From Desulfosarcina sp. (lineage in GTDB: Bacteria > Desulfobacterota > Desulfobacteria > Desulfobacterales > Desulfosarcinaceae): 44,498 bases of DNA. The stretch spans positions 1-44,498 of the forward strand of contig JABZFO010000155.1 of NCBI GenBank assembly GCA_014237405.1, given 5' to 3'. Position numbers and translations under genes: made by a program. Shown one piece after another: positions 25,768-28,181 of this stretch. The notes below the pieces were generated by a model. The model worked only from the letters and a program-made list of their open reading frames with translations. It was not told the DNA's origin and did no database searches. The stretch's first letter is position 1; each line of letters begins with the position of its first letter.

Positions 25768-26787
25768 CTAAAACGGCTCGTCCCCTCCGCAAACTTTGAA
25801 AATAGCCATGACCTGCCGGCAAAGTATCTCGAATTGCTCAGGATAGAGGCTCTGGGCCCCGTCGCTCAAGGCCTGGTCCGGTTGATGGTGGACTTCCACC
25901 ATCAATCCGTGGGCATTGGCGGCCACTGCCGCACGGGAAAGGGGCAGCACCTGATCCCGACGGCCGGCGGCGTGGCTGGGGTCCACCACGATAGGCAGGT
26001 GGCTCTCTTTTTTGACCACCGGCACGGCGGACAGGTCCAGGGTGTTACGGCTGTGGTGGACAAAGGTGCGCACCCCCCGCTCACACAGGATGACCTGGTG
26101 ATTGCCCCGGGCCATGATGTATTCGGCGGCCATGAGCCACTCTTCAATGGTGGCGGCCATGCCCCGTTTGAGCAAAATGGGCCGGTAGGACTCCCCTGCC
26201 CGCTTGAGCAGGCTGAAGTTCTGCATGTTTCGGGTGCCGATCTGGACCACGTCGGCGTAATGTTCCACCACGTCAAAATTTTGGAAATCCATCGCCTCGG
26301 TGACCACGGGCAGGCCTGTGGTCTCTCTCACCTTGGCCATGATCTTTAGCCCCGCTTCCCCGAGCCCCTGGAAGGAGTATGGGGAAGTTCGCGGCTTGAA
26401 GGCACCGCCCCGGAACAGATGGGCGCCGGCCTTTTTGACATGCCCGGCAATAGTTATTGCCTGGTCTTCACTTTCGATGGCACAGGGTCCGGCAATGATG
26501 GTAAGGTGGCCGTTGCCGATGGTGTTCTCACCCACCTGAATCAAGGTGTCCTCGGCTCTTGTCTCCCGACTCACCAGTTTGTAAGGTTTGGTAATGGGCA
26601 CCGCTTCCTTGACCCCCGGCAAGCCGATGAACAGGGCCATATCCACGGGTCCTTTGTTGTTCAGTACGCCGATGGAGACACGATCGCCACCGGGAATGGG
26701 CCTGGCCGTGCAGCCACGACTTTCAATGACCTTGACCACCTGGTCGATCTGTTCAGGTGTCGCCGTTTTATCCATCACCACCAGCAT
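25768..26787 (-). CDS. aroF: 3-deoxy-7-phosphoheptulonate synthase (DAHP synthase, class I-beta)
   Basis: 339 residues with an N-terminal ferredoxin-like regulatory domain (MLVVMDKTATPEQIDQVVKV, about 1-70). A KDO8P/DAHP synthase barrel follows: IIAGPCAIESEDQ, HLFRGGAFKPRTSPYSFQGL, VVQIGTRNMQNFSLLK, LLKRGMA and VVDPSHAAGRRD. It condenses phosphoenolpyruvate with erythrose 4-phosphate, the first step of aromatic amino-acid synthesis. AAGGAGG precedes the ATG. Upstream on the same strand are a Trp-rich leader peptide (26938-27021) and a hairpin with a T7 run (26836-26865), so expression is very likely controlled by tryptophan-dependent attenuation. The next gene is a lipoprotein. Confidence 0.95.
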   Translation of the reverse strand: MLVVMDKTATPEQIDQVVKVIESRGCTARPIPGGDRVSIGVLNNKGPVDMALFIGLPGVKEAVPITKPYKLVSRETRAEDTLIQVGENTIGNGHLTIIAGPCAIESEDQAITIAGHVKKAGAHLFRGGAFKPRTSPYSFQGLGEAGLKIMAKVRETTGLPVVTEAMDFQNFDVVEHYADVVQIGTRNMQNFSLLKRAGESYRPILLKRGMAATIEEWLMAAEYIMARGNHQVILCERGVRTFVHHSRNTLDLSAVPVVKKESHLPIVVDPSHAAGRRDQVLPLSRAAVAANAHGLMVEVHHQPDQALSDGAQSLYPEQFEILCRQVMAIFKVCGGDEPF

Positions 26788-26835: not shown

Positions 26836-26865
26836 AAAAAAAGGCCCGAGGTTAACCCCGCGGCC
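26836..26865 (-). terminator. Attenuator terminator upstream of aroF
   Basis: On the minus strand GGCC-(G)-CGGGG (26865-26856), loop TTAA, then CCTCG-GGCC (26851-26843) form a nine-pair stem with one bulge and one G-T pair, followed by seven T (26842-26836). It ends 48 bases before the aroF start, so by default transcription should stop there. Confidence 0.8.
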
Positions 26866-26876
26866 CCTTAAACCGG

Positions 26877-26912
26877 AAACGGACCGCCGGATTTTCGCCC
26901 GTTGGTCCGTTT
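26877..26912 (-). promoter_or_regulatory. Upstream hairpin of the aroF attenuator region
   Basis: AAACGGACC (26877-26885) pairs exactly with GGTCCGTTT (26904-26912) around an 18-base loop. It lies between the end of the leader peptide and the terminator hairpin, the position of the pause/protector structure in classical amino-acid attenuators. The exact antiterminator pairing was not resolved. Confidence 0.6.
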
Positions 26913-26937
26913 GCTTTTCATCGACACGAAACGCGTC

Positions 26938-27021
26938 TCATGCAATAAGGAACCTGCAGGCGCACTCCATTGGCCAGCGCCACCACCAGAACCAAATCTT
27001 CCCGATTACTGAGAGGTTCAT
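26938..27021 (-). CDS. Trp-rich leader peptide of aroF, 27 aa
   Basis: ATG at 27021 with AGGAG five bases upstream opens a 27-codon frame ending at TGA 26938. The peptide reads MNLSVIGKIWFWWWRWPMEC and then seven more residues. Five of the seven residues 10-16 are Trp, with one Phe and one Arg. Such a cluster makes the ribosome stall when charged tRNA-Trp is short, which would alter folding of the hairpins at 26877-26912 and 26836-26865 and let transcription reach aroF 151 bases downstream. The role is inferred from the trpL-type layout. It is too short for ordinary gene finders. Confidence 0.85.
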   Translation of the reverse strand: MNLSVIGKIWFWWWRWPMECACRFLIA

Positions 27022-27227
27022 GTTCTCCTGCTTTTCCTAATGGTTACCGCGTGAGCGGATTTTCTTGGATATGGCACCCATCACCGTGATTGTCAACCGC
27101 TTTTTCCACTGGCAAACCGGCGGCGAATGTGGATTTGAGCCAAACTTTTATGAGCAGATGCAAAAAGGGGGCTTGACTTGGGGGGGGGTACCATTATTGT
27201 ATTGCAAAAGAATCAAGGAGCATGATT

Positions 27228-27437
27228 ATGCCAATCTTCGAGTATCAATGCAAGGCCTGCTGCCATCAATTCGAGCAACTGGTGTTCTCATCGGACACCG
27301 AATCCCCGGTATGCCCGGCGTGCAACTGCGGCGATGTGGAAAAGCTGATGTCGGTCGGTGCCGTCCGGCCCCATGGCATTCCCACTGGGTCCGGCGGTTT
27401 CAAGCCCCCGGCCTGCAAACCATCTGCCGGCGGCTGA
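27228..27437 (+). CDS. FmdB-family zinc-ribbon protein
   Basis: 69 residues from [19 protein letters not shown]; the AAGGAG site is spaced correctly for this ATG and too close to the ATG six bases earlier. Two CxxC pairs (residues 8-11, and CPAC near 29) make the FmdB/CxxC_CXXC_SSSS-type zinc ribbon, followed by a Gly/Pro-rich tail. Members are small putative regulatory proteins; biochemical role unknown. Its 3' 150 bases overlap the convergent uracil-DNA glycosylase gene in antisense. Confidence 0.82.
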
Positions 27438-28181
27438 GGAATTTAACTCTCCGATTTCCATGGCCGCCAGTTCCGACTCCACCAGCGGCGCCCATCCCCG
27501 GTTGGCTTTGGGGTTGGCCGGGCTGGGGTGGGTAATCCGGCCGATCTTCATCCCCATGCCATTTAATGCATCCTGAGCCCGCTTTTCGGCAAACCCGCCA
27601 ATACCCACCACCCACTGCGGCTTAAGGATTTCGATGGATTTTCGAAGCGCCTGGTCGCAAATCTGGAACAACCGTTTTTTTTCAACCGCCGGCAGCTTGT
27701 CCGGGGTACGGTTGCGGCCGCTTGCTTCCATGAACACCATCGGGCAGTAATTTAGCACAAAAAACTGTTTAAAAAAGGCACCCGGGTTTCCATACCGCTG
27801 TTTGGCCCATCCCCACAGCCGGCGACCGCTCACCTCCCCGCGCGTGCAGGAAAAGCCCGATATTGGCCGTTTGGGATGGGGACTCGCCGGCTGCGCCACG
27901 GCGGCGGTAATGCCCATCCACCCCTTTACCATTTCCACGTCGCCGAACGGCACACCGGTCTGGGCCATGCCGAAGGGACCGGGATTCATGCCCACCAGAA
28001 TCACCTGTTTGGCTGTGCCGCCGAAACGGGCCACATACCGGTCATAACCGCTCCGGGCATAGACCAGCGGATTGTAGGTGTGGGTCACGGGAGCGGAAAA
28101 CGTCATCCGTCGGGTGCGCGCCACCAGGTTATCGGTCACCGCAGCGATGCCGGCCACCCGGCCGCCGCCGGATAACGCCAT
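27288..28181 (-). CDS. Family-3 (SMUG1-like) uracil-DNA glycosylase
   Basis: 297 residues. The family-3 motif [18 protein letters not shown] (about residues 64-81, with the catalytic Asn) and the HPSPANP motif near 218-224 are intact. The enzyme removes uracil, and often oxidised uracils, from DNA in base-excision repair. SMUG1-type proteins usually end soon after the second motif. Here about 50 extra residues after [10 protein letters not shown] are encoded opposite the FmdB gene and are Arg/Gly/Ala-rich, so they look like read-through rather than a domain. The start follows a 31-codon gene by one base. Confidence 0.88.

Follow-up and report, generated by a model that had tools for sequence, protein, structure and literature searches.

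A probable tryptophan-codon attenuator before the DAHP synthase gene aroF of Desulfosarcina and its putative relatives in aromatic amino acid synthesis of Desulfobacterota

In a 44,498-nucleotide stretch of Desulfosarcina DNA (the window), positions 27096–26836 of the minus strand very probably form a ribosome-mediated transcription attenuator that ties the transcription of aroF, encoding a stand-alone 3-deoxy-7-phosphoheptulonate (DAHP) synthase, to the charging of tRNA-Trp. Sequence and comparison identified a promoter, a leader open reading frame with a run of tryptophan codons, a pair of hairpins of which the second has a U-run, and conserved pairings that exclude one another. Attenuation by leader peptides is a classical device for trp, phe and his genes; here it would reach beyond the trp branch and act on the first step of the aromatic pathway, and no report of this was found for the phylum. 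On a wider scale, we lean towards the view that most aromatic amino acid synthesis in Desulfobacterota is controlled via one family of six-segment attenuators with codons re-set for each enzyme: Trp for trpE and the stand-alone DAHP synthase, Phe for a DAHP synthase-prephenate dehydratase fusion, Phe/Tyr for pheA, and Tyr/Phe/Trp for aroF-aroB-pheA-aroD operons of other classes, where the RNA plan is putative. DAHP synthase isozymes would thus be controlled by leader codons, a task that in E. coli falls to TyrR and TrpR, which are repressors.

The regulated gene lies at 25768–26787 on the minus strand and was assigned by the families NF006421 (485.9 bits) and TIGR01361 (394.3 bits), both over cut-off. 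By sequence comparison, its closest named relatives are from Desulfosarcina and other Desulfobacteraceae. All leader elements are on the same strand. A −35 hexamer TTGACA (27096–27091) and, after a 17-nt spacer, a −10 hexamer CATATC (27073–27068) were read from the sequence, and the leader transcript would start near 27061. A Shine-Dalgarno sequence AGGAG (27029–27025) follows at a short spacing of only 3 nt from the ATG of the leader reading frame (27021–26938, 27 codons, MNLSVIGKIWFWWWRWPMECACRFLIA), which was recognised from the sequence and from counterparts in relatives. Shine-Dalgarno-like cores were found at 46 of 79 leader starts compared with 71 of the 477 remaining ATGs of these regions. 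Tryptophan occupies leader residues 10, 12, 13, 14 and 16, which makes five in seven residues, and these codons, W F W W W R W (26994–26974), form the regulatory cluster, segment 1. The end of the leader coding sequence (26963–26941) is segment 2, the predicted partner of segment 3 (2:3 duplex, −21.0 kcal/mol). Right behind the leader stop codon is a small hairpin (26937–26923); its stem letters vary, with pairing retained by eye in the related loci L028, L031 and L009. Sequence and alignment define segment 3 (26912–26904, AAACGGACC) as the 5' arm of the 9-bp hairpin 1, the 3' arm of which, segment 4 (26885–26877, GGTCCGTTT), is able to pair with segment 3 or segment 5. The terminator consists of segment 5 (26869–26856, AAGGGGCCGCGGGG; 4:5 duplex, −20.1 kcal/mol), a TTAA loop and segment 6 (26851–26843), followed by seven T (26842–26836). 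The distance from the leader stop to the aroF start (26787) is 150 nt.

An earlier note on this DNA had already named the leader, the five Trp codons, the 9-base stem, the T7 terminator and aroF, and each of these elements was found in its place; the promoter and the small hairpin behind the leader stop are additions to that list. Its reading of the region as a ribosome-mediated attenuator of the trpL kind that controls aroF in a member of Desulfobacterota was supported by the comparison, in which the nearest named relatives belong to Desulfosarcina. The 9-base stem is present and is better read as a relay hairpin formed by segments 3 and 4. For a role of the Arg codon in the cluster no support was obtained, and Arg sensing was set aside.

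In the proposed mechanism, a ribosome supplied with ample Trp-tRNA would reach the leader stop and cover segment 2; the 3:4 hairpin and then the terminator 5:6 would form, and transcription would stop before aroF. If Trp-tRNA is scarce, the ribosome would stall in the Trp run over segment 1 and leave segment 2 free to take segment 3; segment 4 would then take segment 5, the terminator 5:6 would fail, and aroF would be made. In aroF leaders, segment 2 starts a median of 12 nt past the last Trp codon, and the stop codon ends 4 nt beyond it; stalling on Trp thus keeps segment 2 accessible, and a ribosome at the stop covers it. The scheme of the his attenuator has six segments as well, with 1:2, 3:4 and 5:6 set against 2:3 and 4:5. 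The same plan very probably serves trpE with Trp codons, the fused DAHP synthase-prephenate dehydratase with Phe codons and Desulfosarcina pheA with Phe/Tyr codons; since the plan is shared and the codons go by gene, each DAHP synthase would respond to the amino acid that its branch of the pathway produces.

Leaders with a Trp cluster, defined as a short reading frame with at least three Trp in eight residues no more than 500 nt upstream, were identified in 43 of 74 stand-alone aroF regions of the class compared with 1.6% of dinucleotide shuffles (20 for each of the 74 upstream regions). These 74 regions are those long enough among 77 fetched (L161, L166 and L168 were dropped), in a set that leaves aside partial matches and three genomes of the genus matched in the same draw. 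The earlier note had named homologous aroF leaders lacking a Trp-rich frame as evidence against an attenuator, and the outcome is mostly favourable, with such a frame in 43 regions and, by the chosen cut-off, none in the other 31. A crude terminator scan of the window gave 2 sites against a shuffle mean of 3.7; the terminator alone is therefore not above chance, and the case for the attenuator rests on comparison. This is the one point in favour of regarding the Trp-rich frame as a chance neighbour of an ordinary terminator, an explanation of practically negligible probability that is already contradicted by the 43 of 74 regions against 1.6% and by the conserved promoter and hairpins.

A second kind of DAHP synthase in the class is encoded by a longer frame, exceeding 600 codons. 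In the window's own genome it is fused to prephenate dehydratase according to a family search, and the remaining genes of this set, judged from their frame length of 624–732 codons, are presumably fusions of the same type. Trp clusters precede none of 30 fused aroF-pheA genes. Phe clusters precede 26 of the 30, a figure less striking than that for Trp because they also occur in 18% of the shuffles of this set; before the stand-alone aroF genes of the class they were seen in 9 of 74 (shuffles 5.8%). The Phe leaders are mostly of the form FGRFFFxFRSVHPV. A Trp leader was also present at 21 of 30 trpE loci of the class, and the trpE gene of the window's own genome has a Trp leader, MDHEPGLSTPFLPLPESRWWFWRHPNACRV, with its own terminator; the earlier claim that the device sits on aroF and not on the trp operon is thus not supported. 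Phe or Tyr occurs in or just before the Trp run in 22 of 32 aroF leaders and 4 of 17 trpE leaders (Fisher p 0.006), a contrast that is only suggestive since the sequences are related.

Coordinates place aroF and trpE next to each other on one strand in three genomes (G013, G028 and G035), which account for three of the nine trpE loci of the class without a Trp leader. Here a Trp leader stands before aroF (L210, L197 and L196) and trpE lacks a separate one (L374, L371 and L385), an arrangement that suggests an aroF-trp operon under a single attenuator. In two others (G105 and G086), aroF and a gene read by eye as trpE are divergent neighbours. Judged from the sequences, aroF belongs with trp. 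One relative of the stand-alone aroF (G114:C1:187783–188802) has a single in-frame TAG within the match.

For the analysis of the RNA, 112 leaders were collected (50 aroF, 30 aroF-pheA, 22 trpE and 10 pheA), of which 79 could be parsed into two hairpins with a U-rich stretch behind the second; the pairing tests refer to these and not to the other 33. Three leaders judged by eye to be mis-parsed (L176, L230 and L238) were left out of the ribosome-mask folding described below, which leaves 76, and 42 of these 76 were chosen by hand for an alignment of the four gene types. Therein, the same eight columns of segment 4 pair with segment 3 in 94.8% of cells and with segment 5 in 95.2%, compared with 23–56% in slid controls. 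The covariation score was matched by 0 of 500 shuffles, but two of five measures, those counting pairs or pair types, were matched by 19–111 of 500, and the covariation stems largely from differences between gene types and thus represents few events. The core GACCGTGG of aroF and trpE is replaced by CCCCGGG in aroF-pheA, and both helices survive.

Pairing of segments 2 and 3 was stronger than in shuffles in aroF (−20.4 vs −15.7), trpE (−20.8 vs −13.2), pheA (−27.2 vs −15.3) and aroF-pheA (−21.8 vs −11.6, where all 24 rows surpassed 95% of shuffles). The alternatives 2:4 and 2:5 were near shuffles in aroF, trpE and pheA, with a small excess in aroF-pheA. Pairing 1:2 exceeded shuffles in aroF (p 6e-4) and trpE (p 2e-5), and among the parsed leaders of aroF-pheA and pheA it did not. 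The mean of 4:5 was stronger than shuffles in each type (aroF, −17.1 vs −11.2); the rows beating 95% of shuffles numbered 19 of 32 in aroF, 8 of 17 in trpE, 2 of 24 in aroF-pheA and 2 of 6 in pheA, and partners from other gene types were beaten in only 3 of 17 trpE rows and 0 of 6 pheA rows.

These data bear on a simpler arrangement as in E. coli trp, in which hairpin 1 would be a first terminator or a pause hairpin, the leader region would compete directly with it, and 4:5 would be incidental to the similarity of the hairpins. We hold this to be unlikely, if a serious competitor. A U-run of at least five follows hairpin 1 in 14 of 32 aroF, 14 of 17 trpE and 16 of 24 aroF-pheA leaders, and several aroF leaders (e.g., L039, L061, L067 and L073) show just one terminator, as this arrangement would have it; hairpin 1 of the window, however, has only T3, the 4:5 complementarity survives the change of the core between gene types, and on average it beats both shuffles and partners taken from other gene types, in all four of them. 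Behind hairpin 2, a U-run of at least five was found in 25 of 32 parsed aroF leaders.

The effect of the ribosome on the six-segment relay was modelled by partition-function folding of the RNA cut before segment 6 with the ribosome as a mask. From the stop to the best stall codon, 4:5 went up by more than one pair in 63 of the 76 leaders and down in 2. When segment 2 was shuffled, mean 4:5 dropped from 7.6 to 2.7 in aroF, from 7.0 to 1.6 in trpE, from 6.6 to 0.7 in aroF-pheA and from 9.7 to 1.4 in pheA, where the shuffled runs covered the last two cluster codons only and the real figure is the best of all codons. At the level of the clade, the mutually exclusive antiterminator pairing (2:3 and 4:5 versus 3:4 and 5:6) is conserved in four gene types, and aroF, trpE, aroF-pheA and pheA have a common RNA plan, for which a six-segment relay is the best interpretation. 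For the C-terminal leader motifs GCACRIP, RSVHPV and KGLPGAR, RNA segment 2 offers an explanation in place of a function of the peptide.

In the window itself, expected 4:5 pairs rose from 1.8 to 4.6 along the Trp codons compared with 2.6 at the stop. Among its relatives, L028 moved in the wrong direction, L029, L030 and the trpE of the own genome showed no clear change, and L031 and the own-genome pheA (L288) shifted in the right direction. According to the folding model, the switch is clear across the clade and weak in the window's own copy; either the aroF leaders of the genus perhaps belong to a drifting branch of the device, or a mask this simple possibly does not do justice to their GC-rich stems.

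The whole leader of the window folds with a z of −2.25, and 4 of 200 shuffles fold equally well. Such a long structured leader would also be expected of an RNA sensor that works independently of the leader peptide, i.e., a T-box, a riboswitch or the target of an RNA-binding protein, but no Rfam family, T-box included, reached its gathering score in the window, the only match above gathering score over 20 related loci was a tRNA, with no T-box, and the codon cluster is the conserved element, so that a sensor of this kind appears highly improbable. The Rfam model of the Trp leader (RF00513) had no match in the window and none over cut-off in 40 genomes of the class, and the trpB motif (RF04312) likewise had none over its cut-off of 59 in the 40 genomes (best, 43.5 bits). 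The His leader model (RF00514) gave sub-threshold scores of 37.4 and 34.7 bits on two aroF-pheA leaders (cut-off, 49).

Within the genus, promoter and leader of aroF were conserved together in seven of ten sequences compared; AAAGCNNTTGACAA and an ATAT-type −10 were found in the window, L028, L029, L030, L031, L009 and L286. L032, which is without a leader, retains the −35, and L033 and L011 lack it. By genome, an aroF leader with at least three Trp was present in G000, G001, G002, G003, G004 and G008, and one with two Trp in G007; G006 has retained promoter and terminator with the leader missing, no aroF leader was found in G011 and G012 (D. widdelii), and G005, G009 and G010 are without a readable aroF start. 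For trpE, a leader was detected in 7 of 10 (six by scan and L111 by eye). In the trpE loci L112, L113 and L116 (of G004, G008 and G007), leader and hairpin 1 are mostly or wholly missing, and promoter and terminator are retained. The genomes that have lost the trpE leader retain the aroF leader, and G011 and G012, which are without an aroF leader, retain that of trpE; given the few cases, this complementarity is an observation only.

A further explanation treats the inverted repeats as operators in the DNA to which a Trp-responsive repressor would bind, with the Trp-rich frame as a by-product. There are indeed two similar palindromes downstream of the promoter, and the second outlives the loss of the leader in three trpE genes and one aroF. 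The stems nevertheless contain G-U pairs and end in U-runs, the codons of the frame follow the pathway branch of the gene (Trp or Phe), and segment 2 within the frame is complementary to segment 3, which makes operators a very doubtful reading compared with attenuation.

In L112, L113 and L116 (trpE) and in L032/L008 (aroF), the promoter runs almost straight into the kept terminator, a like loss in two genes. The aroF genes of L033 (D. widdelii) and its relative L011, for which no leader was found, have a sequence like the neighbouring zinc-ribbon gene close upstream, and the trpE and pheA leaders are retained there.

Two further leaders were identified in the window's own genome, GRYFYFYYFFSKGLPGTR before pheA (L288) and the Phe leader SRLFFGCFFFSFRSVCPAL before the fused DAHP synthase (L002/L217, contig C119 of G000). 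With this second enzyme, fused to prephenate dehydratase on C119, the aroF under the Trp leader is not the only DAHP synthase gene of this genome. Contig C119 may be foreign to the genome bin (4.84% contamination), and in the other 12 genomes of the genus, several of them incomplete, a search for the fused type only found no such second DAHP synthase. For Desulfosarcina pheA, Phe/Tyr leaders were present in 10 of 12 examined covariance-model loci, and the other two matches lay inside the gene.

A covariance model was built from 19 aroF leaders and run over 97 genomes of the class. It matched 30 loci, the window and 29 others, of which 22 stand before trpE, 6 before aroF and 1 (L248) at a contig edge, as named by eye from the start of the downstream protein. 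A leader with at least three Trp was found in 27 of 28 loci, and L249 has two. At least two of the aroF matches (L241 and L255) were training sequences, and trpE was outside the training set. The model also gave weak matches before unrelated or unidentified genes (L289, L292, L293, L294 and L296) and, at true sites, matches on the reverse strand.

In other classes of the phylum, stand-alone aroF genes of 60–77% identity had a Trp leader in 6 of 17 cases (L311 and L317 were left out as the gene start was not where expected), and those of 50–57% identity in 0 of 38. In the latter group, which is another DAHP synthase lineage, 16 of 38 leaders (L324, L333, L334, L340–L342, L345, L347, L356, L358 and L362–L367) contain at least six Phe, Tyr or Trp in eight residues (shuffles 0.3%), e.g., FSFSFWYYFYYYCLPVCPSL. 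The region downstream was inspected by eye for eight of these 16, and six have aroB-like and then chorismate mutase/prephenate dehydratase-like frames; L398, where the contig soon ends, and L404 have no such frames, and those of L397 proved to be aroB, prephenate dehydratase with a chorismate mutase domain, and aroD. Leaders that name all three aromatic amino acids therefore seem to head common-pathway operons and are candidate pan-aromatic attenuators. Apart from the matches L097 and L105, no convincing leaders were found outside Desulfobacterota or at the Geobacter locus L103 in a W-only scan of the loci of aroF relatives and a W/F/Y scan of 28 loci from L079 on.

As usually described, the trpL attenuator of E. 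coli and other Proteobacteria (RF00513) has tandem Trp codons, alternative hairpins, an intrinsic terminator and a pathway gene downstream in common with the leaders described here. The device differs in that it stands on aroF as well as trpE, has two tandem hairpins after the stop and a segment 2 between Trp run and stop, and is not matched by RF00513 above its cut-off in any of 40 genomes from the class. With the his operon attenuator (RF00514) it shares the relay logic, and codons, genes and sequence are other ones. The comparative surveys of Vitreschak 2004 and Merino 2008 may list some of the leaders before trpE. A leader is also found before E. coli pheA.

Leaders before DAHP synthase genes have been proposed in other phyla. 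Corynebacterium glutamicum aroF is described as having a putative attenuator with a Phe-Tyr-Phe leader peptide (PMC4046766), thus Phe/Tyr instead of Trp codons, and the uORFC-13-1 motif of Acholeplasma combines an upstream frame and a terminator before aroF with proposed attenuation (PMC8632094), in a different RNA with a Phe-coding U run. For E. coli aroF, an attenuator was hypothesised, as cited in PMC8632094 and, as sensing of Tyr-tRNA, in PMC2659441, and the DAHP synthase genes aroF and aroH are placed under TyrR and TrpR (PMC5343134). Leaders of Shewanella pheA and trpE (PMC2659441), like that of E. coli pheA, also put a leader peptide before a chorismate mutase/prephenate dehydratase gene, whereas here it occurs on the aroF-pheA fusion too and on the same chassis as the Trp leaders. 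An aroF attenuator in Desulfobacterota is not reported in the accessible text of PMC8632094, PMC4046766, PMC5343134, PMC1262725, PMC2965389, PMC2659441, PMC9413887 and PMC11109978, and no description of a single chassis with codons re-set for paralogous DAHP synthases turned up in the literature searched. In the present set, paralogous DAHP synthases carry leaders for different amino acids, and recoded, deleted and intact attenuators form a natural series on one RNA plan, which makes the joint evolution of leader codons, relay pairing and gene function testable.

Beyond the promoter, the window holds a divergent small reading frame (27228–27437, plus strand), which we take to encode an FmdB-type zinc ribbon protein. 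This gene is overlapped by a frame of 297 amino acids (27288–28181, minus strand) that has no NCBIfam match and presumably resembles a SMUG-type uracil-DNA glycosylase.
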